Below, piece by piece: positions 23,843 through 40,429 of a stretch of DNA of 64,000 bases. Below the pieces are notes generated by a model that was given only the letters and a program-made list of their open reading frames with translations, did no database searches and was not told where the DNA came from. Positions within the stretch are counted from its first letter, which is position 1. Each line of letters opens with the position of its first letter. Origin of the DNA: Ignavibacteriae bacterium HGW-Ignavibacteriae-4 (GTDB lineage Bacteria; Bacteroidota; Ignavibacteria; Kapaibacteriales; UBA2268); the NCBI GenBank assembly GCA_002839765.1, contig PGYR01000006.1:1-64000 (forward strand), written 5' to 3'. A program made the position numbers and the translations under genes.

Positions 23843-24352
23843 TCACTTTGTCAGTGTTATATCTTGGAAATTCACTTTACCGCCACCTACTGAAATTACA
23901 GAGAATTCAATATCATCACAATCTTGATCAACTCCATTATTTTGTTTTTTCTTTGATGTTTTTGTCCAATCATCGATTGGTGTTACATTACCTGTTGAAC
24001 GTCCAGATTCTTTTTCAGTTGAAGCAAGTAATAAATTACCACCACCTTGTTGGTCACTAATTTTGAAAGTAATAGGTTTATGCATCCTTTTGCCAGTAGG
24101 TAAACCACTAAAGTTACCTGCTGTAGGTTTATCCAAATTACAAGATTTTCCATTTTTAGTTAAACGTATTGTATAGACTGCGTCATCTAATCCGTCTAAT
24201 GTGAGTTGACCTCGGTTGTCAAATTTCCCTGTCTTAAAAACTTTACCGTTTGCATCGATAAGTGAGACTTCGCTACCTGCAACGCAACTAGGTGATGCAG
24301 AATATAATGCCAGAGGAAGCACAAATAATAGAACTAGTAATAGATTTTTCAT
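23843..24352 (-). CDS. Small secreted protein, array member 1
   Basis: The start is placed at the ATG at 24352, which has GGAG upstream and gives the same MKNLLLVLL signal peptide as member 2; a start 12 bases further upstream is less likely. It is 169 residues: signal peptide, shared beta domain with Cys23 and Cys71 in conserved places, one GLPTGKRMHKPITF motif, a linker, then DQDCDDIEFSV and a C-terminal strand pair. It is the first gene of the array and is divergent from gap across 193 bp that must hold both promoters. Confidence 0.7.
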   Translation of the reverse strand: MKNLLLVLLFVLPLALYSASPSCVAGSEVSLIDANGKVFKTGKFDNRGQLTLDGLDDAVYTIRLTKNGKSCNLDKPTAGNFSGLPTGKRMHKPITFKISDQQGGGNLLLASTEKESGRSTGNVTPIDDWTKTSKKKQNNGVDQDCDDIEFSVISVGGGKVNFQDITLTK

Positions 24353-24461
24353 AACCAACTCCAAATAAGTTAAATAAAATTTTAAATAAGACTCAGGATT
24401 AAAATACTATATTTATTGAATTAATCTTCAGTATTTTTACTGATTTTTTTGAAAACAATAA

Positions 24462-25546
<1,085 letters not shown>

Positions 25547-25547
<1 letters not shown>

Positions 25548-26734
25548 TGATTAGAAATATAGATAATTTTAATTTCCAAGGTCAGAAAGCTCTAATTAGA
25601 GTTGATTATAATGTACCATTGGATTTGAAATTGAACATAACTGATGATAAAAGAATCATAGCATCTATGCCCACCATCAAGAAGATACTTTCTGATGGTG
25701 GCATGGCTATTATTATGTCTCATCTAGGTCGCCCTAAAGGTGTTAAAGTTAAAGAAATGTCTCTTAGACCAGTAGCTAACTACCTTTCCAAATCTCTAAA
25801 TACTAAAGTACATTTTGCTGAAGATTGCAATACAGACGTAGCAAAACAAGTAGTATCAGAAGCTAAATTAGGTGAAGTTGTATTATTAGAGAACCTAAGA
25901 TACTATGCCGAAGAAGAAGCTAATGATGATGATTTTGCAACAAATCTTGCTTCATTAGGCGATGTATATGTTAATGATGCTTTCGGAACAGCTCATAGAG
26001 CCCATGCAAGTACATATTCCGTAGCAAAAAAATTTGAAAATCGATTCGCTGGTAAGTTAATCGAAAAAGAGATGGAATATTTAGAAGATGTTATAAATAA
26101 TCCTAAAAAACCATTCACAGCCATTATTGGTGGGGCTAAGGTCTCTGGTAAAATTGACGTAATTGAAAATTTATTTTCCAAATGTGATAATATATTAATC
26201 GGCGGAGGAATGGTATTTACATTCCTTAAAGCACAAGGTCTTGAAGTTGGAAAATCACTTGTAGAAGATGATAAATTGGAAATGGCAAAGAAAATATTAG
26301 TCGATGCAAAAGCAAATAATGTCAACCTAGTATTACCAACCGATATAGTAGTAGCAAAAGAATTTAAAAATGATACAGAATTCAAAAATGTATCAATTGA
26401 AAATATACCTAGTGATTTTATGGGTTTGGACATTGGTATAGAAAGTACTAAAAGCTATGCTAAGCTTATAGAAAACTCTAACACCGTACTTTGGAATGGC
26501 CCAATGGGTGTATTCGAAATGGATAATTTTGCCAAAGGCACTATCGGTGTTGCAGAAGCTTTAGCAACTGCTACTTCCAAAGGTGCTAATACTATAGTAG
26601 GCGGTGGCGATTCTGTAGCTGCTATTAGAAAATTGGGATTTGAAGACAAAGTTTCTCATATCTCGACAGGTGGTGGTGCTTCATTAGAATTTCTAGAAGG
26701 GAAAAAGCTACCGGGTATCGAAGCACTAAGATAA
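25547..26734 (+). CDS. pgk: Phosphoglycerate kinase
   Basis: This 395-residue enzyme transfers the acyl phosphate of 1,3-bisphosphoglycerate to ADP. It has RVDYNVP near residue 18, MSHLGRPKG, LLENLRYYAEEE, the nucleotide-binding GGAKVSGKI and LIGGGMVFTFLKA, and the C-terminal TIVGGGDSVAA with STGGGASLEFLEG. It is translationally coupled to gap and completes two consecutive glycolytic steps. Confidence 0.97.
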
Positions 26735-26799
26735 AAAAACAATTATTTATCTTAAGCGTCAAGCATTAGATTATAAATTTGAATTAAAGATTGAGTTAA

Positions 26800-27813
26800 A
26801 TGAACGGATTTGGTAATAGACCTAGTGGATTTGGTGGTGGAATGTTCGGAATGTTCCCTCCCGTAATCAAATTCATCCTGATGTTGAATGTTGCAGTATT
26901 CATATTGCAATACTTCGTTATGGAGATAGTATATATTGGTGGATTGCCAATGAGTAATTATTTCTTTAATTATTTTGCACTACAAACTACGAACTTTTCT
27001 TTCTCATTCGCCGAGAATTCTTTCTGGCCATGGCAGTTAATTACTTTCCAGTTTATGCATGGTGGGTTGTGGCATCTATTTTTTAATATGTTCGCTATTT
27101 GGATGTTTGGTATAGAACTAGAGAACAGTTGGGGTAGTCGTAGATTCTTATTTTACTACTTACTAACTGGAATTGGTGCCGGATTAGTCCAATTAGCCAT
27201 CCATGCAGGACCTACTATAGGTGCTTCTGGTGGTGTGTTTGGGGTATTATTAGCATTTGGTATGATGAATCCAGATAGAAAAATATTCATCTTCCCTATT
27301 TTCATCCCAATAAAAGCCAAATATTTCGTTATGATATATGCAGGTATAGAGCTTTTCTTAGGTATCACAGGTTCTTCATCTACAGATGGTATAGCCCATT
27401 TAGCTCACGTTGGTGGTGCTGTAACTGGATTCTTACTAATAAAATTTGGCGATCAAATAGGAATATACAAGCTTCTGAATTCATTTATAAAATCATTTGG
27501 AGTTAGAGGTACAAGCGCAGGGTATAGTCAATTCGGCGGTCAATATGGTGTTGGCAGTAGCAATCCATTTGGTGGAAGTTCTAAAAAAAGAGAAGAAGCT
27601 AAACGTTACAAAGTTAGTTGGGAAAAGACTAGCTCTGATAACGATTATAAAATAGAAGAAACAGATACGAATAGTAAATCGTATATAATAGACGGTGAAG
27701 AGATAACTCAACATACAGTCGATAGTATCTTAGATAAAATTTCGGCTTCTGGTTATCAGAACCTGTCAGAAAGAGAAAAATTGATATTAAACGAATTGAG
27801 TAAAAGATTATAA
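26800..27813 (+). CDS. Rhomboid-family intramembrane serine protease with DUF6576-like tail
   Basis: This 337-residue polytopic protein has the active-site dyad Ser143 (GASGGVFG) and His203 (HLAHVGGAVTG), plus the upstream HGGLWHLFFNM motif, so it should cleave within the membrane. After the rhomboid core comes a soluble Lys/Asp-rich linker and a C-terminal helix pair (EITQHTVDSILDKISASG...SEREKLILNELSK), matching the DUF6576 tail often attached to rhomboids in this bacterial group. It lies between pgk and ispG on the same strand; the ispG start is one base after its stop. Confidence 0.92.
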   Translation: MNGFGNRPSGFGGGMFGMFPPVIKFILMLNVAVFILQYFVMEIVYIGGLPMSNYFFNYFALQTTNFSFSFAENSFWPWQLITFQFMHGGLWHLFFNMFAIWMFGIELENSWGSRRFLFYYLLTGIGAGLVQLAIHAGPTIGASGGVFGVLLAFGMMNPDRKIFIFPIFIPIKAKYFVMIYAGIELFLGITGSSSTDGIAHLAHVGGAVTGFLLIKFGDQIGIYKLLNSFIKSFGVRGTSAGYSQFGGQYGVGSSNPFGGSSKKREEAKRYKVSWEKTSSDNDYKIEETDTNSKSYIIDGEEITQHTVDSILDKISASGYQNLSEREKLILNELSKRL

Positions 27814-27814
27814 T

Positions 27815-28951
27815 ATGAGTGAAACTAAAAACGGTATAATCGGCTTAGACGTATTCAAGCCAAAAGAAGAAATGCCACAAAGTGTGCAGTATCCTCGAAG
27901 ACAATCACGTAAAGTAATGGTGGGCAATATACCAGTTGGTGGTGGCTCTCCTGTCTCTGTACAAACTATGACTAAGACAAAAACTGCTGACGTAAAAGGC
28001 ACAGTAGAGCAAATCCATAGATGCGTAGAAGCTGGTGCTGATATAGTCAGAGTAACAGTAAACAACAAAGAAGCGTGCGATGCTATCGGCGAGATTGTAA
28101 AGCAAGTAAGCGTACCAATCGTATCGGATATCCACTTCAACTATACTTACGCTCTTCGTGCAATCGAAGGTGGTGTATCAAAAGTTAGGATAAACCCAGG
28201 TAATATCGGTAGCGTTGACAAAATAAAGAAAGTACTAACAGCAGCCAAAGAGCGTGGTATTCCTATCAGAATAGGTGTAAACTCTGGTTCGCTTGAGAAA
28301 GACATACTAGATAAGTATGGCTATCCGACTGATCAAGCACTATTCGAAAGTGCTATGAGACACGCTAATATAGCAGCAGATCACAACTTCGATGATATCA
28401 TCATCTCTGTGAAATCTACTAGCGTACCACTTATGATATCTGCTTATAGATTATTGGCGAAAGAAACTGATTTCCCTCTTCACTTAGGTGTAACGGAAGC
28501 TGGATTGATTACCAAAGGTACTATCAAATCGGCAATTGGAATAGGTACATTGCTTGCAGAAGGCATAGGTGATACGATTAGAGTATCTCTAACTGACCAA
28601 CCAGAAAACGAAGTAGAAGTAGGTAAAGAGATATTAAAATCTCTTGGCTTAGCCCAAAGAACTGTAGAAATCATCGCTTGTCCGACTTGTGGAAGACTAG
28701 ATGTAGATTTATTCAAGATAGTGGGCGAGCTAGAAGAAAGAACGAAACATATCAAAAAGCCAGTGAAAGTTAGTATTCTGGGTTGTGCTGTTAATGGACC
28801 GGGTGAGGCGGCAGATGCAGACATCGGGGTAGCAGCAGCCAAAGGTAAGGGAATGCTATTCAAACACGGTGAATCTATTGGCTATGTGAACGAAGAAGAT
28901 ATAGTCGAAAGAGTTTACCAAGAAATCCTTGCTTTCGAACCGAAAGAATAA
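27815..28951 (+). CDS. ispG: (E)-4-hydroxy-3-methylbut-2-enyl-diphosphate synthase
   Basis: This 378-residue [4Fe-4S] enzyme of the MEP isoprenoid pathway converts MEcPP to HMBPP. Cluster ligands are visible: CPTC (Cys289, Cys292) and GCAVNGPGE (Cys324). The TIM-barrel part has SVQTMTKT near residue 47 and VSDIHF. The compact, bacterial single-domain length fits; it is not the longer form with a large central insertion. It ends at a strong terminator. The isoprenoid link may tie in with the squalene-type dehydroxylase gene at 34589. Confidence 0.96.
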   Translation: MSETKNGIIGLDVFKPKEEMPQSVQYPRRQSRKVMVGNIPVGGGSPVSVQTMTKTKTADVKGTVEQIHRCVEAGADIVRVTVNNKEACDAIGEIVKQVSVPIVSDIHFNYTYALRAIEGGVSKVRINPGNIGSVDKIKKVLTAAKERGIPIRIGVNSGSLEKDILDKYGYPTDQALFESAMRHANIAADHNFDDIIISVKSTSVPLMISAYRLLAKETDFPLHLGVTEAGLITKGTIKSAIGIGTLLAEGIGDTIRVSLTDQPENEVEVGKEILKSLGLAQRTVEIIACPTCGRLDVDLFKIVGELEERTKHIKKPVKVSILGCAVNGPGEAADADIGVAAAKGKGMLFKHGESIGYVNEEDIVERVYQEILAFEPKE

Positions 28952-28975
28952 GATAGAAAAAATAGATAAAGAAAG

Positions 28976-29012
28976 AAAAAGCTCGCAGTATTGAACTGTG
29001 AGCTTTTTTTTA
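28976..29012 (+). terminator. Rho-independent terminator after ispG
   Basis: A GCTCGCAGT / ACTGTGAGC hairpin (one G-T pair) is flanked by an A run and followed by eight T residues. Confidence 0.88.
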
Positions 29013-29034
29013 ATATAATTAAATTTTAATTTTT

Positions 29035-29059
29035 ACTCCACCCCAACGCTATCTACTTC
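29035..29059 (-). pseudogene. Second copy of the 3' end of the R-M C-terminal gene
   Basis: Twenty-five bases here match 29964-29988 with two mismatches. Read on the minus strand they encode EVDSVGVE plus stop, exactly the C-terminus of the R-M C-terminal half. Both internal differences are synonymous and the stop is TAA instead of TGA. The stub overlaps the stop codon of the DUF7282-like lipoprotein gene and marks the far border of that gene. Confidence 0.65.
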
Positions 29060-29886
29060 TCGTCCCAAACAAGCCTACTAATTATTTCCTTCTGGTTATG
29101 TCCCCATCTGTTTATACCGTAATATTCATTTGAATCAGCGTGTGGATACTCAAATTTACCTATAATACCATCATCAATATGTAAGTCAACAAGTATATAT
29201 TTCTCATATTCTTCTAAATAAATATCGACATTAAATCTTATTTTACCTTTAAAACCTGCTTCTACTTGAGTCTTTCCTATTATTCGTATTCTATCATTAC
29301 CAGTTGTAGTCTTATAAGCTACTAACCAACCAGCGACTGCTGTCTGAACTGTGACTTCAACTGAGCCATTAATCTTCTGGTTTTCAGCGGTTATATAAGG
29401 TGGGGTTAAAATAATTTTCTTACTAATTATTTTTCCATCCTCATCCACTATTGGCATATCTTTTCCATTAATATTATCATACTCAAAAGTTCCCTGAACC
29501 CCATCATCAGTATGAAGCATTATCCAAACATGCACTTTATCAAAACGAGTATAAATTGAAGGCGAATTTACTAATTTAATAGCAAGATTTTCTGTAGTTC
29601 CTGCTTTAACATAAATTGGCTCTGATATTATAGTTTTTTGGTCAGGAATACCAGTACTATCAGGATATACCACTAACCATCCATCTTTTTCAAAAGTAAC
29701 TTTATTTATTATTATTTTATTTTGAGATATTAGTTGGTTATTAACATTAATGGAACCGCCAACTATTATTTCAGTCTCTACTGTATCCGTTTTCGTTGGT
29801 TCAGTAATACTCGATTCGTCTTGCTTACAAGAAGAGACAAAGTTAATCGCTACTAGAATAGCAACTATTGTAATTAAATTTTTGAT
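29053..29886 (-). CDS. Lipoprotein with two DUF7282-like repeats, apparent ATC start
   Basis: In frame, a full lipoprotein signal (KNLITIVAILVAINFVSSC) lies upstream of the first conventional start (GTG at 29673). It is preceded by a strong GGAGGAG but opens with ATC at 29886-29884 where every comparable gene has ATG AAA AAT. The closest in-frame stop is five codons upstream, so no ATG can precede it. The 277-residue product has two tandem beta domains (GWLVVYPDS...YVKAGT..., then GWLVAYKTT...VEAGF...), each with an (L/M)H(T/I)DDG(V/I) turn, as in DUF7282. The gene is bordered by near-identical direct repeats (29035-29059, 29964-29988). It may be a gene with a rare start, a start-codon mutant, or a sequencing error. 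Confidence 0.7.
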   Translation of the reverse strand: MKNLITIVAILVAINFVSSCKQDESSITEPTKTDTVETEIIVGGSINVNNQLISQNKIIINKVTFEKDGWLVVYPDSTGIPDQKTIISEPIYVKAGTTENLAIKLVNSPSIYTRFDKVHVWIMLHTDDGVQGTFEYDNINGKDMPIVDEDGKIISKKIILTPPYITAENQKINGSVEVTVQTAVAGWLVAYKTTTGNDRIRIIGKTQVEAGFKGKIRFNVDIYLEEYEKYILVDLHIDDGIIGKFEYPHADSNEYYGINRWGHNQKEIISRLVWDEK

Positions 29887-29961
29887 AACTCCTCCGAATT
29901 ATTCGATTGTTCATTCTTCTAATTTGTTAATCTACTTAAATCTAGTACAAAATCAAAACTC

Positions 29962-31383
29962 TCACTCCACTCCTACGCTATCTACTTCTTTCATTAGTCT
30001 ATCCGTCTCTGTGAGGGCGACTATTATCTTTTGGTAGTGGTTTATATCTTCGTATGTCAAAGGTCGCGGGTTGTTGAGCGGAGTCGAAACACGGTCTTTG
30101 AGCCATTTCTGGGCAGGTTGATAACCACCGATGTAAAACTCCCATGCTACCTCTGGTACGCCATCGAAATACTGCTCATCGTTTATCCATACACGACCTA
30201 TACCATTGCCAGTTTGCTCGTAACCGATGCTGTTTTTGGTCATCTTGCGTTCGACTATATTACTTCCATCATTGGGATAGCTAGTGATGTATTTATCTGC
30301 TGTTTCGAGTAAGTGTAGTTGACGTATTTGAGAACCCAAGTCCACCAACTGCCAAAACTTCTTCTTGTCCTTCGGGTATGGTACTCGTGGGAAATCAATC
30401 TTCAGAAATTCCTTGTACTTCTCTCTGTATGCAGGAGAATGTAGTACTGCGTAGATGTAGTCTAGTAAGTCTATTGGTGCAAAATATATGTCATTCCGAG
30501 CTGTACTCCCCCTTGTCAAAGGGGGTTGGGGGGATTTACCAGACTTTAACCCTCCTAAATCCTCCCTTGACAGGGAGGACTTTCCGTCCTCATCCCACGG
30601 TGCCACATCACGAAACTCCAGCCCTATGCCCTTGGCTATCTCGCCGACTAACTTCATATCCAAGTTGGGGGTTCTGCTTTGTGGCTCGCTACCACTCTGG
30701 TCTAATGTGGCTCGCTCGCCTGCTTCTGGGTATAGGTAGAGGGGGAATGCATTACCAGTACCAAATAATTTTGCACTTGCAGTAAAATTTCCTTCAATAA
30801 CATTCTTTGAAATAAAAATATGTCTATATTCTTGTGTAGTCTGTCTTGGTAGAATCAAACCCAAATTATCAAAAAGAAAATGCTTCATTACATTAAACCT
30901 AGACCTTCCAATGAAACCACCTGACTTTTTTGTCAGTATTGTATATCTTTTATCAAAAGGTCTATAGTTGACAACTATATTCTCAAAGTTTTCATTTAAG
31001 ATACTATTTTTTGCTTTTATAAAACTCCAACCACTTGAATCTGATTTTTCAGAATATATTAATTTTAATTTTTCAACTTCTAAAGTTTTGAATTCATCTA
31101 TTGTTTTGTTTAAAGTATTTTCTGAGAAATGAATTGAAATTGAATCACATTTAGTTTCAATTCCATTGGAATTTATCTTAAATATGCTGTTAATTCTAAA
31201 ACCTATTCTGTAGCTTTCCTCCGCATCAAAATCTTTCGGAACAAAGAAGTAATATGGTTCTTTGTATTCCAGCTCATTCCATTCGATATTATTTACTGAC
31301 TTCTCATCCAGAAATTTATACTTTTCATCACGCTTACCGTATAGGTCATAGTGATATACTTTTGCTAGTTTTTTATTTTTCAT
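29962..31383 (-). CDS. C-terminal (specificity) half of a split type IIG-like R-M enzyme
   Basis: This 473-residue protein starts LAKVYHYDLYGKRDEKYKFL, which in relatives continues directly from the methylase domain encoded at 32328-34187. It contains the target-recognition/C-terminal region (YRPFDKRYTIL, IGRSRFNVMKHFL, FPLYLYPE, PLDLLDYIYAV-like PIDLLDYIYAVLHSP, WEFYIGGYQPAQKWLKDR). Its ATG lies 11 bases inside the 3' end of the nested membrane-protein gene, so translation is probably coupled. It carries at least one clear in-frame insertion of dispersed-repeat DNA (30489-30597) and two likely smaller ones. Whether the two halves assemble into an active enzyme is unknown. Confidence 0.8.
   Translation of the reverse strand: MKNKKLAKVYHYDLYGKRDEKYKFLDEKSVNNIEWNELEYKEPYYFFVPKDFDAEESYRIGFRINSIFKINSNGIETKCDSISIHFSENTLNKTIDEFKTLEVEKLKLIYSEKSDSSGWSFIKAKNSILNENFENIVVNYRPFDKRYTILTKKSGGFIGRSRFNVMKHFLFDNLGLILPRQTTQEYRHIFISKNVIEGNFTASAKLFGTGNAFPLYLYPEAGERATLDQSGSEPQSRTPNLDMKLVGEIAKGIGLEFRDVAPWDEDGKSSLSREDLGGLKSGKSPQPPLTRGSTARNDIYFAPIDLLDYIYAVLHSPAYREKYKEFLKIDFPRVPYPKDKKKFWQLVDLGSQIRQLHLLETADKYITSYPNDGSNIVERKMTKNSIGYEQTGNGIGRVWINDEQYFDGVPEVAWEFYIGGYQPAQKWLKDRVSTPLNNPRPLTYEDINHYQKIIVALTETDRLMKEVDSVGVE
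29964..29988 (-). repeat. Direct repeat partner at the R-M gene 3' end
   Basis: This is the coding 3' end of the R-M C-terminal gene (EVDSVGVE plus TGA) and is repeated 929 bp away at 29035-29059 with 23 of 25 bases identical. The pair brackets the DUF7282-like lipoprotein gene. Confidence 0.7.
30489..30597. repeat. Dispersed repeat inserted in frame in the R-M C-terminal gene
   Basis: There are two opposed arms: CTCCCCCTTGTCAAAGGGGG followed by TTGGGGGGATTTA, and CCTCCTAAATCCTCCCTTGA followed by CAGGGAGGAC. Intergenic elements of this style (GGGGGATTTA...) are common in this bacterial group. On the minus strand it adds about 35 residues, including SREDLGGLKSGKSPQPPLTRG and TARND, between conserved segments of the protein without breaking the frame. 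Confidence 0.65.
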
Positions 31384-32326
31384 TACTATTTAATCTTCGT
31401 ATTAAATTTATAGCATCCATTGATTCTGGCAAATGTGAAGCCAATAATCTTCGTACTTTTAGTCGATTTTCAGTTTCAAAATAAATTTCATCATATATTA
31501 ATAAGCTTAGACTAAATTTTCTATCACTATATACTCTACCATATATTCCTAAGTAAATACCAAAAATCAATTTTTCTTCTGTGGAAAGAATAGAATTCAA
31601 ACTAATTAATATATTGGCAAGAGCTTTTAATAGGGTTGTAGCTTCTTCATTTACAGTTAATTCGTTTAATTCCTTTCCACTTAGTTCTAACAAAGATGAA
31701 TATGAAGTTGAGTAAGTTAATATATCTATTTCTACTTTATTTAACATATTAAGTAAAGTATTCATAAAAGGTTCTAGTCTAAAATATGCTAGATTATAAA
31801 CATCAAATAAACTAACTATGTTATCAGGATTATTTGCAAGTTTTTCATTTATTAGAGTAATTATATTAGTAAGTGAGCTGTTATTTCTATGTCTAACTTT
31901 AGCTTCTATAAATTTTGATTTAAAAAAGAGAATATTTTCAATATCATTTTGATATTTTCTATTTATCCTTTTGACTAGCATGTCTATATTTTGGCTTTTA
32001 AGGTGATTAACTTGTTCGCTTTGATAATCGGATTGAGATTCAAAGAACTCCTTAACAGCTTTTAATGTATTTGCATTATCATCAAATGACTTTTCTAGTT
32101 TAACTCGACTTTCACGTTGTTCCTTTAATTCTTTGATAAGTAAGACAATAACAAGTGCACTCAAAAAAGCTGCTGAGAAACCGAAGAAATCACCAAAACT
32201 TGAAACACCATCATTACTTTCCCTGAAAACAAAAAATAAAATTATTTGCAATAACAATGATAGGAAGGCAATTAGAATTAATTTTGACTCAAATTTACTT
32301 GATATATTTTTATTCTTCTCTTCCAT
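31373..32326 (-). CDS. AbiC-like membrane protein nested in the R-M gene
   Basis: This 317-residue protein has two N-terminal membrane helices (LILIAFLSLLLQIILFFVF and FSAAFLSALVIVLLIKEL) separated by SSFGDFFG, then a long charged helical/coiled region and an alpha-helical cytoplasmic part. The FGDFFG turn between two helices followed by an LKEQRE coiled coil is the pattern of putative phage abortive-infection proteins (putAbiC, PF16872). The ATG lies one base after the TGA of the methylase half, with GAGG in the end of that gene, and its 3' end overlaps the C-terminal half by 11 bases. It therefore interrupts a single ancestral R-M gene while keeping all three frames coupled. An anti-phage role is inferred. 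Confidence 0.7.
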   Translation of the reverse strand: MEEKNKNISSKFESKLILIAFLSLLLQIILFFVFRESNDGVSSFGDFFGFSAAFLSALVIVLLIKELKEQRESRVKLEKSFDDNANTLKAVKEFFESQSDYQSEQVNHLKSQNIDMLVKRINRKYQNDIENILFFKSKFIEAKVRHRNNSSLTNIITLINEKLANNPDNIVSLFDVYNLAYFRLEPFMNTLLNMLNKVEIDILTYSTSYSSLLELSGKELNELTVNEEATTLLKALANILISLNSILSTEEKLIFGIYLGIYGRVYSDRKFSLSLLIYDEIYFETENRLKVRRLLASHLPESMDAINLIRRLNSNEK

Positions 32327-32327
32327 C

Positions 32328-34187
32328 TCAACCCCTCTTCTTTACAAATATATTAATCGAAACACCTTGCATAATGTCGAATACATTTTCATCTTTACCA
32401 TCATCGGGGGTGGTTTCTTTTTTCTTGGCATTACCGTGTAGGTCTAGTATATAGATTTTATCGAATGTCTCTAATAGATTCTTTCTCATTTGTCTATGAG
32501 TTATTCCGTCTATGAAGCTATTGTTCGAGATATAAGCAAGTATTCCTTCGCCATTCTTTTCTATATAGTGTTGTCCATAGCGTATGAATTTTATATAATC
32601 GTCATCTAAGTTTATCTTTCTTTCATTCAAATCTTTCTTGTAATCTTTTATCAAATTCTGAATCCACTCGCCCTTGTTGCTACTGCTCACACTATACGGC
32701 GGATTACCTATTACGCACATGACTGGTACGTCTCGCTTTATCCTATTCGCTTCGTTGGATTCGGCACTTAGCCATGACGAGAATATAGTCCCTGTGTCTT
32801 TGTGGTGTTCTTCTAGCGAGTTAGTCAGAAATACGTTCAGTCGTTGGTCAGTCTTCGACTTGTAGCCAGTTTCTGCCAGCAGCATAGATAGTTTTAGGTG
32901 AGCCATAGCATACGATGCCATTAGCAATTCAAACCCATTCAGACGTGGTATTAGGTGCTCGTCCACGTAGCTGCTCCACATACCCTGCATTTGTTTGAAG
33001 TTAGTATTGTATATGTACTTCACCACTTCCGCTAGGAAAGTTCCCGTACCTGTTGCGGGGTCTAGTATTTGTACTTTGTGTACTTCTTGTTCTTGCACTT
33101 TGCCTTGTACATCTACTTTGATTTTCGTTTTGGTAGTGTCGGCTAGTCCTTGTGTTAACCCAAATTCCGTTTTTAGTATATCATCTACAGCACGCACTAT
33201 GAAGCTAACCACTGGTTCGGGAGTGTACCACACACCACGTGATTTGCGTAGCTTGGGGTCATATTCAGCTAGGAAAGTCTCGTAAAAGTGGATTATAGGG
33301 TCGTTCGTCTGTGTGCTATTACCAAAGTTTTTGAGTAATTCCTCTACGTTCGTATGACGGAATACTTCAGCCAAGTTCTCTACTGTCGGCTTGATACGTT
33401 CGTCTATATCTGGACCAGCCACATATCCGAATAGCTTCCGCAAGAACGGATTCGATTTTGGTATTAGCTCTGCTGCTTCCTGCCTGCTGAAAGTGTCTAT
33501 CGTGTCATCATTCAGCCGAGCAGCGAACATACCATAAGCAAGTGTTTGTGCGTAAATATCGGCAAATCCTTTCGGATCTAGGTCGTGTATTAGTATATCT
33601 TTGAAAGTCTCGTACTGAGCTTTGATTGATGTGTTTGCTTGCGTCTCCTCATCGGACTCTACCGCCTGCTCTAATATATTTTGGAGTAGTCGAGCTTTCG
33701 CAGCCATCATTACCGCCAACTTCTTCGATGATTTTATAGTCTGACTAACGAACGTACAGAAGTCCTGTATCAGATTCTCGAACTTACCGAAATTTTCTGG
33801 AAGTGCTTTGACTTTACCATCCACTATTTCACCGATGCGTATCTCATGCACCAACTCCCCATTTTGGAAGAATTGGAACCACAGGTAATCTGTGATGATT
33901 AGGTTATCTAGTGCATTTCTGTACCTACCGAACTGCTCTTTGTATGATTTAGAATTCAGGTCTTTGGCTATATCCTTCGCCTCTATGTACCCAATAGGTA
34001 TTTTCCCTTTGGTTATCACATAGTCGGGGTTACCGCAATCGGTAACGTTAGCTGGCTCATTGGTAATCTCTACGGTAGTTACCATAGCACGGAGTAAGTT
34101 CTCTAGGTCGGCTCTATATGAGTGTTCACGAGAAATACCAGAAGCGTACCTTTTCGCAACAGAATCGATGTATTGTTGTAAAGTCAT
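32328..34187 (-). CDS. N-terminal nuclease and N6-adenine methylase half of a split type IIG-like R-M enzyme
   Basis: This 619-residue protein has an N-terminal PD-(D/E)xK-type nuclease (NPDYVITKG with Asp55, then GYIEAK with Glu69 and Lys71). A helical connector follows, then a gamma-class adenine methyltransferase: motif I DPATGTGTF near residue 376 (SAM binding) and motif IV NPPY near 495 (target base). TPEPVVSFIVRAVD is also characteristic. Relatives are single proteins of about 1000 residues with a C-terminal specificity domain; here the frame stops after NIFVKKRG, next to the nested gene, and the specificity part is a separate frame (29962-31383). There is no helicase domain, so type IIG rather than type ISP. 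Confidence 0.85.
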   Translation of the reverse strand: MTLQQYIDSVAKRYASGISREHSYRADLENLLRAMVTTVEITNEPANVTDCGNPDYVITKGKIPIGYIEAKDIAKDLNSKSYKEQFGRYRNALDNLIITDYLWFQFFQNGELVHEIRIGEIVDGKVKALPENFGKFENLIQDFCTFVSQTIKSSKKLAVMMAAKARLLQNILEQAVESDEETQANTSIKAQYETFKDILIHDLDPKGFADIYAQTLAYGMFAARLNDDTIDTFSRQEAAELIPKSNPFLRKLFGYVAGPDIDERIKPTVENLAEVFRHTNVEELLKNFGNSTQTNDPIIHFYETFLAEYDPKLRKSRGVWYTPEPVVSFIVRAVDDILKTEFGLTQGLADTTKTKIKVDVQGKVQEQEVHKVQILDPATGTGTFLAEVVKYIYNTNFKQMQGMWSSYVDEHLIPRLNGFELLMASYAMAHLKLSMLLAETGYKSKTDQRLNVFLTNSLEEHHKDTGTIFSSWLSAESNEANRIKRDVPVMCVIGNPPYSVSSSNKGEWIQNLIKDYKKDLNERKINLDDDYIKFIRYGQHYIEKNGEGILAYISNNSFIDGITHRQMRKNLLETFDKIYILDLHGNAKKKETTPDDGKDENVFDIMQGVSINIFVKKRG

Positions 34188-34318
34188 AGGTATAGAATTT
34201 CATTTTATTAGTTTCCTGTATTGCTAATATAAGGAAAAGAATGAAATGTACGTAATGGGAAGGGGTGGATATAATAAAAGTTAATTGAGATTACCCATGC
34301 CTTCGGCTTGGCGGGCAA

Positions 34319-34343
34319 GTCCTTTCAGTCCTCGCTGTGACAG
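34319..34343 (+). repeat. Dispersed repeat, copy B
   Basis: GTCCTTTCAGTCCTCGCTGT followed by GACA matches 7861-7883 with one inserted C. It sits in the spacer between the R-M locus and the tRNA-Leu terminator. The preceding CCATGCCTTCGGCTTGGCGG contains a further short inverted repeat. Confidence 0.6.
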
Positions 34344-34365
34344 AACTAATAAGACGGATTTAAAC

Positions 34366-34406
34366 AAAAAAAGAGCAGAATCTGATTTTACTCAAATTCT
34401 GCTCTT
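34366..34406 (-). terminator. Rho-independent terminator after tRNA-Leu
   Basis: On the minus strand, AAGAGCAGAAT / ATTCTGCTCTT forms an 11-bp stem followed by a T run, 4 bases beyond the encoded CCA end of the tRNA. Confidence 0.88.
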
Positions 34407-34409
34407 AGT

Positions 34410-34496
34410 TGGTACGGACGGAGAGACTCGAACTCTCACAAGCTTAAGCCCACTAGATCCTAAGTCTAGCGCGTCTACCAATTCCGCCACGTCCGC
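34410..34496 (-). tRNA. tRNA-Leu (anticodon UAG), CCA encoded
   Basis: The 87-nt cloverleaf on the minus strand has acceptor GCGGACG paired with CGTCCGT (one G-U at the end), anticodon stem CTAGA/TCTAG with loop CTTAGGA giving UAG, a long class II variable arm, and T arm GAGAG-TTCGAGT-CTCTC. The 3' CCA is encoded in DNA. It is read in the same direction as the R-M operon but separated from it by its own terminator. Confidence 0.96.
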
Positions 34497-34588
34497 ATCA
34501 AAATAGGTTACAAATTTATAACATTTAATATTAACTAAAAAATATATTTTTAAAGTTTTTCTCTTCTTTTGTTATTAAATTTGAATCT

Positions 34589-35884
34589 ATGGGAATACAA
34601 AAACGAAAAGTTGCGATAATTGGGGCTGGTGTATCGGGTATGACTGCCGCTATAGAGCTGATGGATAGCTATGTAGTGCATATATACGAAGCTACTGATA
34701 CTATAGGTGGTAGGGCTACTACTTTAGAGGATAAGACCAGCCAAGAGACTATAGATAATGGTCAGCATATTTGTATAGGTGCCTACAAATACTTCTTCTA
34801 TATGCTGAAAAAGATTGATGGAATGGAACATTTCCACATTCTTGAAAAATATGATATACCATATTTCTATAATGCTACGTTTAGCTCTCTTACTTCGAAG
34901 ATATTTTCAGGCAAGTTCGGACTGCTAGAGGCTATTATAAGGGATAGTAACTTCTCGTTTAAAGAAAAACTAAATACTATTATTTTTGCAATTAAAGTTC
35001 AGATGGATTCCATCTCATTCCAAAACTTTGCGGATTGCTATGAAATGCTCGTGCATCATAAGCAATCGGAAAAAGTAATCAAGATACTCTGGGAGCCACT
35101 AATAGTATCAACAATGAATACTCCAGTCCGCAAAGCAAGTCCAATTATATTCGAGAATATAATGCTCGAAGGATTCCTAAGTAAAAGCCAAAACGCGGCA
35201 TTCTATCTACCGAAAGTACATTTTGGTGAACTATTCAAGGGATTTGAGTCAGTTTTCCTGAAAGAAGAGAATAAGATATACTACAATACCTCGATTAAGT
35301 CGATAACGGAGAATGGTGACAAGTTTTTAGTCAATGATGAGTATTATGATGATGTGGTGGTGACAACGCCGTCATTCATCACTAAACGGATATTGAGTGA
35401 ATTGCCGATAGAAATTGATGTGCCCGACTACTCCCCTATAGTTTCTGTTTATTTCTGGACGGATACTAAACTCACAGATTCGTACATGATATCAGCGGTG
35501 GATGGCGGTTTCGATTGGCTATTCAACAGAGACAAATTGATAGATAGAAACTCTGATACTTACTCGTACCAGATAACTACTAGCGATGCTGTTCGGTACG
35601 CTAAGCTGAAAGATGATGTAATAATGTCGATGATGGAAGAGGACTTGAGGAAAATGTTCGGTGAAGATTTCAAAATAACTCATTACAGAATAGTTCGCGA
35701 GCTAATGGCGACTTTCCTTGCTGATAAGAAAAATAATCTGAAAAGACCAAAAGTGAAAACTTATATACCCGGTCTGTATTTAGCTGGTGATTATTCGGAT
35801 AATGGGTATCCCTCAACTCTAGAAGGGGCTGCTAAAAATGGGTTTAGAGCTGCTCACTATATTCTGAAACGTACTGCAAAATAA
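34589..35884 (+). CDS. hpnE: FAD-dependent amine oxidase-type enzyme, HpnE-like (hydroxysqualene dehydroxylase)
   Basis: This 431-residue protein has an N-terminal dinucleotide-binding motif (VAIIGAGVSGMTAA), a YEATDTIGGRA segment, and the DNGQHI motif typical of squalene-associated FAD desaturases. ILWEPLIVSTMN in the middle and the C-terminal LAGDYSDNGYPSTLEGA FAD motif are also present. HpnE reduces hydroxysqualene to squalene in hopanoid/squalene synthesis; other phytoene-desaturase-like roles remain possible because hpnC/hpnD are not in the window. A TAnnTTTG-like promoter element ends 5 bases before the ATG, which could imply a very short or absent leader. The 3' end overlaps coaB on the other strand by 41 bp. 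Confidence 0.75.
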   Translation: MGIQKRKVAIIGAGVSGMTAAIELMDSYVVHIYEATDTIGGRATTLEDKTSQETIDNGQHICIGAYKYFFYMLKKIDGMEHFHILEKYDIPYFYNATFSSLTSKIFSGKFGLLEAIIRDSNFSFKEKLNTIIFAIKVQMDSISFQNFADCYEMLVHHKQSEKVIKILWEPLIVSTMNTPVRKASPIIFENIMLEGFLSKSQNAAFYLPKVHFGELFKGFESVFLKEENKIYYNTSIKSITENGDKFLVNDEYYDDVVVTTPSFITKRILSELPIEIDVPDYSPIVSVYFWTDTKLTDSYMISAVDGGFDWLFNRDKLIDRNSDTYSYQITTSDAVRYAKLKDDVIMSMMEEDLRKMFGEDFKITHYRIVRELMATFLADKKNNLKRPKVKTYIPGLYLAGDYSDNGYPSTLEGAAKNGFRAAHYILKRTAK

Positions 35885-36503
35885 TATCAGCTATTTCCGA
35901 TTTTGGTGCGGTTGGTATTTCTTTTATATTGTCCTTATTGTCAATAATCGTGACAGTGTTTATTTCCTTTCCGAAGCCACTATCAGTGCTATTAGCTTGA
36001 TTAGCTACTATTATATTACAGTTCTTACGCTCTAGTTTACCCTTAGCATATTCTACTAGCTTCTCACTTTCTAGAGCAAAGCCAACGATTATTTGTTTTT
36101 CCTGTTTTTTACTCCCTAACTCCTTAAGTATATCCTTAGTTTTGACTAATTCAATTGACATTGTGTCGTCATTTTTTTTGATTTTACCATTGTGCTTGAC
36201 TTTTGGGGTATAGTCTGCAACGGCAGCAGACATTATTATAACATCCTGCTTTTCAGAATAGCTCGTAACCACTCGGTACATATCATCTGCAGATTCTATA
36301 TCTACCCTATCAATAGCTGGGTTACATAGCAAACAAGTAGGTCCAGTCACCAAAGTAACCACAGCCCCCATTTTCAAAGCAGATTCGGCTAATGCAAAAC
36401 CCATTTTCCCGGATGAGAAATTACCTATGAAGCGAACATCATCTATTCGCTCATAAGTTGGTCCAGCAGTTATTAGCACCATTTTTCCTTTTAGAAATGA
36501 CAT
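35844..36503 (-). CDS. coaB: Phosphopantothenate-cysteine ligase (stand-alone CoaB)
   Basis: This 219-residue protein corresponds to the C-terminal half of the usual CoaBC fusion. ITAGPTYERIDDVRFIGNFS, followed by SGKMG, is the nucleotide/substrate-binding signature, and SAAVADYTP holds the region of the essential Lys. KTKDIL and VGFALE are also present. It joins cysteine to 4'-phosphopantothenate in CoA synthesis. Its ATG shares a base with the coaC stop (TAATG at 36501-36505), so the fused gene has in effect been split but kept coupled. Confidence 0.92.
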   Translation of the reverse strand: MSFLKGKMVLITAGPTYERIDDVRFIGNFSSGKMGFALAESALKMGAVVTLVTGPTCLLCNPAIDRVDIESADDMYRVVTSYSEKQDVIIMSAAVADYTPKVKHNGKIKKNDDTMSIELVKTKDILKELGSKKQEKQIIVGFALESEKLVEYAKGKLERKNCNIIVANQANSTDSGFGKEINTVTIIDNKDNIKEIPTAPKSEIADIILQYVSEYSEQL

Positions 36504-37048
36504 TATATATACTCTTTGATTGATGCTATTAGGTTCAGTACTTCGGGTAATCTCCCCTGCCCTATTATACCACTTGCTAGCTCGCCGTACTCAGGATCTA
36601 GCACGATGTACCCATCTTCTTTTAGCTGGGCTACATTACGCTGTATCGCCTTGTTTTCCCACATATCACTATCCATAGCCGGAGCTAATAGCTTGGGTAT
36701 TCCTTTGGGGATGGCAGTCGTTAGTGTAGTGAGTGCATTATCACAGAAACCGTTCGCTATTTTAGCTAAAGTATTTGCTGAGCAAGGAGCAATAATGAAT
36801 AAATCGCATTTTTGTGCTTTTTCGATATGCCAAGAACCAGAATCTTGAAATTTATCATCGAACATATCGTCTATGGTTTTATTACGACTTAGATTGTCCA
36901 GAACTAACTTACTGACAAACTTTTTCCCGCTGGGGGTAATGACGCAATTAACGCTCGCACCCTCTTTTATCAGCTCTCTTACTAGAAAAGGGGATTTGTA
37001 TGCGGAGATAGAACCAGTGATTCCTAATATGATATTTTTATTTTTCAT
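36503..37048 (-). CDS. coaC: Phosphopantothenoylcysteine decarboxylase (stand-alone CoaC)
   Basis: This 181-residue flavoprotein is equivalent to the N-terminal half of CoaBC. It has ILGITGSISAYK at the start, the catalytic His in SWHIEKA (about residue 73), IAPCSANTLAKIANG for FMN binding, and PAMDSDMW, which corresponds to the PxMNxxMW motif with Asp in place of Asn. GIIGQGRLPE is the C-terminal flap. It decarboxylates 4'-phosphopantothenoylcysteine after CoaB acts. It is divergent from der across 72 bp. Confidence 0.92.
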   Translation of the reverse strand: MKNKNIILGITGSISAYKSPFLVRELIKEGASVNCVITPSGKKFVSKLVLDNLSRNKTIDDMFDDKFQDSGSWHIEKAQKCDLFIIAPCSANTLAKIANGFCDNALTTLTTAIPKGIPKLLAPAMDSDMWENKAIQRNVAQLKEDGYIVLDPEYGELASGIIGQGRLPEVLNLIASIKEYI

Positions 37049-37120
37049 TTTATGTTATGTGCAAAGTTGACAATCGAATTCCGTAAATTAAATTTTATTT
37101 TCTGAAAAAAGCAAAAAAAC

Positions 37121-38446
37121 ATGGTTACAGTAGCAATAGTTGGTCGTCCGAATGTGGGCAAATCCACCCTTTTTAATAGATTAGTTGGTGAACAAAACGC
37201 CATAATCGAAGACGAACCGGGCGTAACGCGCGATAGAATATACGGCCGCTCCGATTGGAATGGAAAGTATTTCCACGTCATAGATACTGGTGGATTCATC
37301 CCCGGAAGCGAAGATACTATGGAAAGAGCTATTCGTGAGCAAGCTATGATTGCTATGGAAGAAGCCGATTCTATTATTTTCATGGTTGATGGCAAAGATG
37401 GTCTTACTCGATTCGATAGAGACATAGGTATTTTACTTCGTGGTACTGATAAGCCCATAACTCTTATAGTTAATAAGTGTGATAATCACGTTATGGATCA
37501 TAATTCGTATGAATTTTACGAATTAGGTCTTGGCGACCCGTTCCCTATATCTGCGAACAATGGTCGTAGTACAGGCGATTTCATGGATAAGTTAGTTGAG
37601 ACTTTCCCACTGATTGATTTTGATGAAAACGACACGAGATTGAAAATAGCTCTAGTTGGCCGTCCGAATGCTGGGAAATCGAGTTTAGCTAATGCTTTGC
37701 TTGGTCAAGAAAGAAATATAGTAACTGATATTCCGGGTACTACGCGTGATTCAATTGATTCAATTGTAAAATATCACGGTGAAGAAATAGTTCTAATAGA
37801 TACGGCTGGTCTAAGACGTAAATCAAGAGTTGAAGAAAATATAGAAAAATGGAGTATGGTTCGTACACATAGAGCCATTGATAGATGCGACATTGGAGTA
37901 GTATTACTCGATGCCGAAAGAGGATTCGAAGAGCAAGATAAGAGAATAATCCAAATGCTCGATGATCAGAAAAAAGGTATTATAATAGCTGTGAACAAGT
38001 GGGATTTGGTAGATAACGAAGAATCTGACACAGCTCATAAGATGAAAAAATCGATCCTAGAAGAAGTAAAAACATTTAGTTATGTTCCTGTCCTATTCAC
38101 TTCTGCTACTGAGAAGACTAGAGTTTTCAAAGTATTAGATATAGCGAAAGAAATAAAAGCAAGAAGAGAAAAGAGAATATCTACTGGTAAGCTGAACAAA
38201 GTGCTAATAGATTTATTCGAGAGGACACCTGCACCAGCTGTGCGTGGTTACGATTTGCGTATTAACTATGTAACTCAAGTAGGAACAGAGCCGCCACTAT
38301 TTACATTATTCCTTAATCAACCCGACTTATTACCTGGTAGTTACAAACGATTCATAGAGCGACAAATAAGAGAGAACTTCGATTTGGAAGGTACTCCTAT
38401 TAGTTTGCTATTCCGTAAGAAAAACAAGAAATGGGAAGAGAGATAG
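37121..38446 (+). CDS. der: Ribosome-assembly GTPase Der (EngA)
   Basis: This 441-residue protein has two consecutive G domains and a C-terminal KH-like domain, the Der architecture needed for 50S maturation. The first G domain has GRPNVGKST (7-15), EPGVTRD, DTGG and NKCD. The second has GRPNAGKSS (from about 185), DIPGTTRD, DTAG and NKWD. The KH part runs from about 355 to the end. It is monocistronic, convergent with the T9SS gene downstream. Confidence 0.97.
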   Translation: MVTVAIVGRPNVGKSTLFNRLVGEQNAIIEDEPGVTRDRIYGRSDWNGKYFHVIDTGGFIPGSEDTMERAIREQAMIAMEEADSIIFMVDGKDGLTRFDRDIGILLRGTDKPITLIVNKCDNHVMDHNSYEFYELGLGDPFPISANNGRSTGDFMDKLVETFPLIDFDENDTRLKIALVGRPNAGKSSLANALLGQERNIVTDIPGTTRDSIDSIVKYHGEEIVLIDTAGLRRKSRVEENIEKWSMVRTHRAIDRCDIGVVLLDAERGFEEQDKRIIQMLDDQKKGIIIAVNKWDLVDNEESDTAHKMKKSILEEVKTFSYVPVLFTSATEKTRVFKVLDIAKEIKARREKRISTGKLNKVLIDLFERTPAPAVRGYDLRINYVTQVGTEPPLFTLFLNQPDLLPGSYKRFIERQIRENFDLEGTPISLLFRKKNKKWEER

Positions 38447-38473
38447 AGAATATCTTCCCTCATTTCTCTAGCT

Positions 38474-39823
38474 CTATTGTTTTACGAAACGCTTGTACAA
38501 ATTTTCGTTTATTCGGATGAAGTAAGTGCCTTTGCTTAAATCTTCGATATCAATATTTACATTATTTTGGTATAAAGCTATAGTGTTTTTTGCCACTACT
38601 TTTCCTGATAAATCTAGTATATCATAAGATTCTATCATATCTTTTGATAATATGTTAATAAATGACTCAGAAGGATTAGGGTATATGCTTATATTAACTC
38701 TATTTTCATATACACTTGTTAAGTTCTTAGTATCGTATTTGAAGAATTTGTTGACTCTTGTCAATCCTCCATTCTCGTCTAATTCTTCTATTGCACCGGA
38801 AGCATATAGATAGTCATCGTATAAGAAAAAACCATTTATAGGGTTTTTATTATCGTAGAAAATATCATTTTCATCATATAAATCAACCCATGTATCACCT
38901 CCATCTTCTGTGAAGAGGAATACTTGTGTACCAAGAGCAAAGCCATAATTACCATAGAATTTGAAACTATGTATGAACTTTCCAAAGTCAACAAAATCAC
39001 TTATGAATACTGGTTCCCATTCTATAAAATCGGTAGATCTCATCAATGTAGTTTTACCATCTTTCAGTTGTTTGTATCTATTCTCTACAAAAAAATATGG
39101 TTTTTCATACTTGAGATTATAATAAGACTGGCTCACTAAATCAGATTTTTCGAATAAATCAGATTGGAATTTCGTCCAAGTATTTCCACCATTTGAAGTC
39201 TTGTAAAAAGTTAATGAATCATTTTCATTTCCAACCATGTACAATTCATTCTCACTTTTAGCTACCGAATTCACGAATATAAAATTGGAAGGAATACTAG
39301 ATGATAATGCTCGAAAAGGTTGCCAGTTAAGACCTTTATTAGTCGTTTTATAGAAACCATATTTAGATTGGAAACCTATAAATCCAACTGAGTCATTCAC
39401 GAATTGCAGATAATTGACAGGTTCATTAAACTCATTAGAGACTCTGATTTTATTCCATTCTTGTGTTTTAGAATTCAATATATGCACAGAGCCTGGTTCC
39501 GAAGGAGCATATAATTGATTCCCTTGTTTTATAAGATCGTATATAATATTTGAAGCACCAGTAGTATTATATGTCTCATAGAATGCGACATCCCATCTAC
39601 GGGCTAGATTAGTTGAAGAGAGAATACCATTCGTGTTATTGAGATTAACAGCATAGAAAATTCCGTACAATTCTTCCATTTCAAAAGACTTGAAATAAAA
39701 TTCATGTCCGTTAGGATTTTTGACACTAGTGTTATTATCAATCACTTCCCATTTCTTAGAAGATGAAAAGCAATTTGTGTGTATTAGAATTAACAAAAAT
39801 GTAAAAGTGTAAAGAAATCTCAT
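38474..39823 (-). CDS. T9SS substrate with Asp-box/BNR-like repeats
   Basis: This 449-residue secreted protein has an N-terminal signal peptide (LYTFTFLLILIHTNCFS). Several Asp-box motifs are spaced along it (TTNKGLNWQPF, TSNGGNTWTKF, TEDGGDTWVDL), which points to a sialidase-like beta-propeller without visible catalytic residues. The C-terminal 75 residues are a type A sorting domain (ISIYPNPSES, SYDILDLSGKVV, LSKGTYFIRI, ending in basic residues). It resembles the 5175-7571 protein in overall design. It is exported by T9SS; its ligand is unknown. Confidence 0.87.
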   Translation of the reverse strand: MRFLYTFTFLLILIHTNCFSSSKKWEVIDNNTSVKNPNGHEFYFKSFEMEELYGIFYAVNLNNTNGILSSTNLARRWDVAFYETYNTTGASNIIYDLIKQGNQLYAPSEPGSVHILNSKTQEWNKIRVSNEFNEPVNYLQFVNDSVGFIGFQSKYGFYKTTNKGLNWQPFRALSSSIPSNFIFVNSVAKSENELYMVGNENDSLTFYKTSNGGNTWTKFQSDLFEKSDLVSQSYYNLKYEKPYFFVENRYKQLKDGKTTLMRSTDFIEWEPVFISDFVDFGKFIHSFKFYGNYGFALGTQVFLFTEDGGDTWVDLYDENDIFYDNKNPINGFFLYDDYLYASGAIEELDENGGLTRVNKFFKYDTKNLTSVYENRVNISIYPNPSESFINILSKDMIESYDILDLSGKVVAKNTIALYQNNVNIDIEDLSKGTYFIRINENLYKRFVKQ

Positions 39824-39982
39824 CTATTTTCCCGTATTAGTTGCTCTAGTAACTATCAAGACAATAGATATGCCACTTTACTAGATGCTTGTATAAACTA
39901 TTTAAATTAAGATGTTAAAGCAACAAGCAAGGAGAAGAGTTTAATAAGAATAGAACACAAATCTTTTTTCACTAAATTGCAG

Positions 39983-40429
39983 ATGATGAAAACGGATTTG
40001 AACAAATATAAATACAAACGGATAGTATGCTTCGATTATGGATTGAAGCGGATCGGATTTGCAGTTTCCGATGAGTTGCATATTACTATCAGACCCGTCA
40101 AAGTATTTGATGCTACTAGCAAATCACTATTCGATGACATTCTAAAAGAGCTGAAAGAACAGAATACGGGACTAATTGTAATCGGTCAACCAATTCGCTA
40201 CGATGGACAGAGTTCGGAAGTATTAGTCGCAATCGAAAACTTTAGAGAGAAGCTATCCGTTATATCAGGTGTAGATGTTGTGCTTTACGATGAAAATTTT
40301 TCAAGTAAAGAGGCGATGAGTATGATGGTGGCTAATGGTAAGAAAAAGAAAGACCGCCGAAAGAAAGGAAATTTGGATATGACAGCTGCAGCAGTAATAT
40401 TAAGAAACTTTTTAAATGAAAATGAATAA
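39983..40429 (+). CDS. ruvX: RuvX/YqgF-type Holliday junction resolvase or pre-16S rRNA nuclease
   Basis: This is about 148 residues from the ATG at 39983 (an upstream in-frame TTG and a second ATG three bases on are alternatives). RNase H-like fold signatures: CFDYGLKRIGFAVSD with the first catalytic Asp, IVIGQPI, YDENFSS with an acidic residue, and a C-terminal DMTAAAVIL with the last Asp. In bacteria the family is linked to 16S rRNA 5'-end maturation and possibly junction cleavage. The gene overlaps the following GWxTD gene by 14 bp. Confidence 0.88.
   Translation: MMKTDLNKYKYKRIVCFDYGLKRIGFAVSDELHITIRPVKVFDATSKSLFDDILKELKEQNTGLIVIGQPIRYDGQSSEVLVAIENFREKLSVISGVDVVLYDENFSSKEAMSMMVANGKKKKDRRKKGNLDMTAAAVILRNFLNENE

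Follow-up and report, generated by a model that had tools for sequence, protein, structure and literature searches.

The window, as we call the whole 64,000-nucleotide stretch of DNA analyzed here, carries on its minus strand three nearly touching, back-to-back open reading frames (ORFs), designated M, X, and S. An ORF check of the window confirmed that all three were intact, without internal stops. Their coordinates and the two joins were as the sequence-only reading had given them, and are listed below.

34187-32328, minus strand: M half, 619 aa, with a PD-(D/E)XK nuclease motif, a helical region, and most of the fold of a gamma-class N6-adenine methylase.
32326-32332, minus strand: M/X join, TGA-G-ATG, with a 1-nt gap.
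At the M/X join, minus strand: AAGAAGAGGGG, a possible ribosome-binding site made by the final codons of M.
32326-31373, minus strand: X insert, a membrane protein of 317 aa.
31373-31383, minus strand: X/S join, an 11-nt overlap, ATGAAAAATAA.
31383-29962, minus strand: S half, 473 aa, the specificity (target-recognition) half.
31233-31383, minus strand: 5' part of S, KKLAKVYHYDLYGKRDEKYKFL..., conserved, the predicted source of the last strand of the methylase.
30480-30613, minus strand: palindromic repeat lying in frame within the linker of S, SSLSREDLGGLKSGKSPQPPLTRG.

The GC content of X was 26%, compared with 42% in M. The possible function of AAGAAGAGGGG as a ribosome-binding site for X received modest support, as a Shine-Dalgarno-like 4-mer was present at the corresponding position in 8 of 17 split loci and in 22 of 124 intact ones. 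The near-repeat GAAGAATAAAAA / GAAAAATAAAAA located close to the joins, which the sequence-only reading had mentioned as perhaps a chance match, was rejected as an insertion footprint because it occurred at chance level (9 matches in the window with at most one mismatch, against 5.8 +/- 2.4 expected).

M retained all of the catalytic motifs, namely an N-terminal nuclease motif of the PD-(D/E)XK type (NPDYVI..GYIEAKD) and the methylase motifs DPATGTG and NPPY, and matched the Pfam families N6_Mtase (7e-12), MmeI_Mtase, and Eco57I. The C-terminus of M was located in the loop following the strand SINIFVK. S contained a complete Type_ISP_C region (PF18135; 3.6e-76, profile positions 1-342 of 342) preceded by approximately 55 conserved residues. 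On the PADLOC type IIG model of 1096 positions, the match of M started at position 1 and was best over 1-495, and that of S covered positions 655-1077. On solved chains, M and S aligned with residues 285-573 and 840-1007 of DrdV, and with residues 841-1148 and 1406-1532 of LlaBIII, respectively. As M and S correspond to consecutive parts of a single model and of single chains, they represent a real break rather than mere neighbors, in agreement with the initial proposal of a type IIG-like restriction-modification (R-M) gene split by a nested gene. The nuclease, methylase, and specificity parts of a type IIG enzyme were all present across M and S, but on two ORFs with X between them, and not on the single polypeptide that defines the type. 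A Pfam search detected no helicase family in M, indicating that the locus was type IIG-like and not true type ISP; the alignment with LlaGI started at residue 152 of the structure model described below, corresponding to LlaGI residue 714. No ORF for a separate HsdR motor subunit was found among those listed at window positions 24000-40000. S matched one complete PF18135, not the two recognition domains of type IIB (BcgI-like) enzymes.

Uninterrupted homologs were present in large numbers, and the break was located at one fixed point. Scanning genome contigs with M as the query identified 80 loci, most of which consisted of one ORF of about 1030-1110 aa (overall, the typical relative of M and S was a single chain of about 1050 aa), and intact single-ORF relatives were found at 65-81% identity. 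The rows of intact and split forms numbered 124 and 22, respectively, duplicates included. The linker of the intact form reads ...SINIFVKTGKKKxxELGxVxHxDLYGKR; in split forms near the window, M ends with ...SINIFVKKRG and S starts with M..NKKLAxVxHxDLYGKR.

The position of the join within the methylase fold was assigned on a structure model of L035, an intact locus. The model drew on 40 related sequences and had a pLDDT of 71 overall and a pTM of 0.44. The region near the join was modeled with a pLDDT of 85-89, and the strands 618-625 and 636-641 flanked the join, which fell in the loop between them. The end of the window M was equivalent to about model residue 626. Among solved structures, the methylases M.TaqI, EcoKI HsdM, and BrxX extended in the alignment as far as model residue 678-682, and the RM chain of BsaXI (914 residues) as far as 664. 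As M ends at about 626 but the solved methylases reach 678-682, the final 50 or so residues of the fold, its last strand among them, are probably contributed by S. The predicted block of about 50 residues agreed with the S start conserved between the window and locus L032. The model placed the split inside the methylase fold, at a loop, and not between the methylase and specificity domains. The earlier view that M ends just after the methylase domain had to be abandoned, since M lacked these last residues of the fold. The two halves may dock by completing the methylase sheet.

X was predicted to possess two membrane helices (residues 16-34 and 46-64) with an FGDFFG turn between them, followed by a coiled coil and a helical tail. 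A helix pair, a turn of the G-[ED]-F-x-G type, and a coiled coil constitute the architecture of putAbiC proteins. Searches against Pfam, PADLOC, and PHROGs assigned X to no significant family, and it gave no Pfam match to PF16872 (putAbiC; cut-off 22 bits) at E<=1. When the source genome was searched with PF16872 at E<=10, only C62:64911-65129 matched, a gene different from X, and the assignment of X to this family was rejected. X aligned with the true putAbiC of the source genome over the first ~75 residues (E 0.001, in a single comparison), and the tail of X scored -2.1 bits against a profile of 12 AbiC-type proteins, for which the best shuffled tail scored 7.5. The description of X as a putAbiC-like two-helix protein was thus acceptable with regard to the helices and the turn, but not as membership in PF16872. 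Single-sequence fold prediction of X was of low confidence (pLDDT 43). No full-length relative of X was found in the sampled genomes. Weak matches in L132-L136 and L181 were judged to be chance, unrelated ORFs or short matches, while that in L180 was short and contained stops. L182, an AbiC-type protein, had only the membrane part in common with X. The true PF16872 putAbiC gene of the source genome lies elsewhere (L176:4831-5724), beside housekeeping genes. X lies between the parts of another defense system in the same operon, and in the embedded-gene approach of Payne et al. in 2024 (bioRxiv 10.1101/2024.01.29.577857), genes nested in defense systems were reportedly taken as defense candidates. 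The place of X and its N-terminal architecture suggest that it likely has a defense role.

Including the window, 18 loci were split within a few residues of the same point (M residues 616-619), in a sample coming mostly from the phylum of the window and from MAGs, and ranked by M similarity, which favors complete M halves so that breaks within M are under-counted. The inserts were classified by Pfam, or by sequence similarity to Pfam-scanned inserts, as follows.

YhcG/DUF1016 nuclease, seven loci: L034, L078, L096, L099, L107, L110, L142.
Bro-N (DinD-like), four loci: L112, L143, L146, and a shorter one in L084.
Y1 or RAYT-like transposase, three loci: Y1 in L086 and L144, a RAYT-like ORF in L083.
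Shedu, one locus: L032.
DUF559, one locus: L114.
Hairpin only, without a gene, one locus: L145.
Membrane protein X, one locus: the window.

The Pfam scores were 2e-31 for SduA_C (Shedu) and 1e-51 to 1e-59 for YhcG_C, with matches also to Bro-N, DUF559, and Y1_Tnp. The insert of L083 had no Pfam match and was called RAYT-like from its IMPNHLH motif. The association of the split with defense-type genes in other genomes was supported by the YhcG, Shedu, and Bro-N/DinD-like inserts. Because Y1-transposase and DUF559 elements are also found at this point, an insert is not necessarily a defense gene. The three-gene order recurred with respect to the split M and S, but with inserts other than X.

About 8-9 of some 92 matches were split in a class-wide sample. 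Six of the split loci (L112, L114, and L143-L146) belonged to a distant clade with M about 40% identical to the window M, indicating that the position is conserved across a large distance. On a quick, unrooted tree of 122 M halves, which carried a long-branch warning and on which parsimony cannot tell gain from loss, the split state required 12 changes compared with 17.1 in shuffles (INDEPENDENCE), and at least 6 of the 12 changes were forced by well-supported branches. The YhcG inserts were of at least three types, only 30-37% identical between types, whereas their M halves were 66-80% identical. The much higher divergence of the inserts implied that they arrived or were exchanged more than once. 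Judging from these sequence comparisons, the split point seems to be a docking site that additional genes can reuse. A literature search excluding preprints found no paper describing the split, so an earlier report is possible.

Several further features were observed around the same loop. In one otherwise related gene, an insertion element that encodes a transposase (L068:6899-8206) lay upstream of the usual split point, at a distance of a few residues. Short REP-type hairpins were present at both ends of the Y1-transposase inserts (L086:6911-7583 and L144:6175-6948), and the DUF559 insert of L114 was flanked by palindromes. Three intact alleles (L053, L067, and L108) contained in-frame REP-like palindromes at the loop where others were split. 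Roseinatronobacter and Nitrosophilus plasmid entries annotated as two pieces were not counted as the same split, as they break elsewhere in the gene. On a 15-kb Roseinatronobacter plasmid (L139), a type ISP-like R-M gene was present twice, each time with the same genes downstream; the plasmid is possibly a dimer with one broken copy.

Sequence similarity also detected an in-frame DUF559-like nuclease domain in the S linker of five intact loci (L004, L038, L060, L108, and L173). Long inverted repeats flanked the domain in L004 and L038, where the R-M frame was unbroken. The linker of the S half is a second, in-frame insertion site, occupied in the window by the palindromic repeat. In the genome of the window, CCCCCTTTGACAAGGGGG, the palindrome of the window S linker, flanked both sides of a DUF559 gene (L198; G000:C1:33883-34502), with a single mismatch in one copy, which suggests a palindrome-flanked mobile DUF559 element.

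The closest relative of the window locus was L032, in which M was 96% identical to that of the window and Shedu occupied the place of X. The DNA similarity between the two extended through the last codon of M (34232-32332) and resumed from the second codon of S (31380), with nothing between. The insert can be swapped while M and the S start stay unchanged. For this pair, in which both loci are split, the dN/dS of M was 0.03 with a dS of 0.73, and the first 60 codons of S showed 88% amino acid identity with a dN/dS of 0.09. Among pairs of split loci, the dN/dS ranged over 0.03-0.08 for M, 0.09-0.26 for S, and 0.06-0.13 for the inserts of other loci (YhcG and Bro-N), although several of the dS values were above 1 and rough. 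The ratios pointed to strong purifying selection on M, on S, and, in other loci, on the insert. The tight joins and the selection on M in this and other split pairs supported the original interpretation of a tidy three-gene operon rather than decay.

We consider, with a probability of roughly 0.7, that the locus encodes a split type IIG-like R-M enzyme reassembling from M and S, with a recurrent entry site at the loop and X as an AbiC-like second defense layer. An inserted gene would have split the R-M gene at a loop that tolerates insertions, within the final pair of strands of the methylase fold, and coupled translation of a single mRNA would yield M and S as separate chains. Most likely, the first ~50 residues of S dock on the methylase core and the two chains reassemble non-covalently into a complex that would methylate and cut DNA. 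The loop is a recurrent entry site at which different lineages carry different genes (YhcG, Shedu, and Bro-N/DinD-like among them), and X would probably be a second, AbiC-like layer expressed together with the R-M enzyme. A more elaborate version, in which the methylase fold has a built-in cargo site, the split chains reassemble by strand complementation, and defense genes are exchanged as cassettes, is a tentative one to which we give slightly less than an even chance.

If the loop merely tolerated any insertion, M and S would be functional and X would be a passenger without a defense role. This is unlikely, yet it is the strongest of the competing explanations, as the loop also holds Y1 transposases (L086 and L144) and DUF559 (L114), which are genes without a known defense role, as well as the in-frame palindromes of the intact alleles, and has an insertion element nearby in L068. 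However, YhcG, Shedu, or Bro-N/DinD-like genes account for 12 of the 18 splits; their joins are mostly tight, and such inserts are under purifying selection where testable, while the joins of L086, L144, and L114 span 39-223 nt. Decay, in which the insertion broke the R-M gene and left drifting remnants, is the most improbable explanation for the window. Degraded relatives do exist, as M in L150 has been reduced to about its final 35 residues, followed by a Bro-N-like insert and S, and M is frameshifted in L112. The low dN/dS values between the window and L032, the retention of the catalytic motifs, and the tightness of most joins nevertheless argue against it.

Two other explanations appear improbable to a similar degree. 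X could be a functional partner of the R-M enzyme, such as a regulator, a membrane anchor, or a third subunit, rather than an independent defense protein, and the tight joins imply that the cell probably produces X along with M and S. The occurrence of unrelated proteins in the same place on nearly identical M (the window and L032) is, however, at odds with a required subunit. Alternatively, the split form could be ancestral, and the single chains could have arisen by repeated fusion once the insert was lost. Gain and loss cannot be separated by parsimony on an unrooted tree, and an M-S fusion works in EcoKI (PMC3510504). Against this, the intact form is far commoner than the split form, and unrelated inserts at one point are more simply explained by repeated gains.

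Among the known systems, DrdV (PDB 7LO5/7LVV) gave the best structural match over the full length and has the same order of nuclease, helical region, methylase, and target recognition, but is one unbroken chain of 1029 residues. The type ISP enzymes LlaBIII and LlaGI have the methylase and the C-terminal specificity region PF18135 in common with M and S. They are single chains with an ATP-driven helicase motor (PMC4872093), which is absent from the M/S locus. Type IIB enzymes of the BcgI/BsaXI kind are reported to combine nuclease and methylase in one chain and to have a second chain for specificity, the two acting as a complex (PMC11997821, PMC4027205). BsaXI RM extends to model residue 664, compared with about 626 for M; S has one recognition region, and no insert is described for such enzymes, unlike M-X-S. 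An engineered EcoKI HsdM-HsdS fusion keeps R-M function (PMC3510504; discussed in PMC6158711), and together with the separate RM and S chains of BcgI-type enzymes, this makes the reverse step, splitting, plausible.

A second gene is likewise nested in the R-M operon in several type I loci, including hsdM-YhcG-hsdS of Methylobacter with 11-nt and 4-nt overlaps, TgvAB in VPI-2 of V. cholerae (PMC11411939), and DarTG2 in E. coli (PMC12255303). The subunits of those systems are naturally separate genes, whereas X divides a single protein inside a domain. Two Hymenobacter plasmids carried YhcG relatives outside R-M loci, as did a Haliscomenobacter plasmid in the case of Bro-N, indicating that such genes also live alone. 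Embedded defense genes have been known between subunit genes, whereas here one protein is cut repeatedly at the same loop of a conserved catalytic fold. The interval between ...SINIFVK and KLAxVxHxDLYGKR offers a search rule for candidate defense genes such as X, which family libraries do not recognize. If the halves reassemble, the locus would be a naturally occurring split methylase and would show a way in which single-chain type IIG enzymes can evolve into multi-chain systems.
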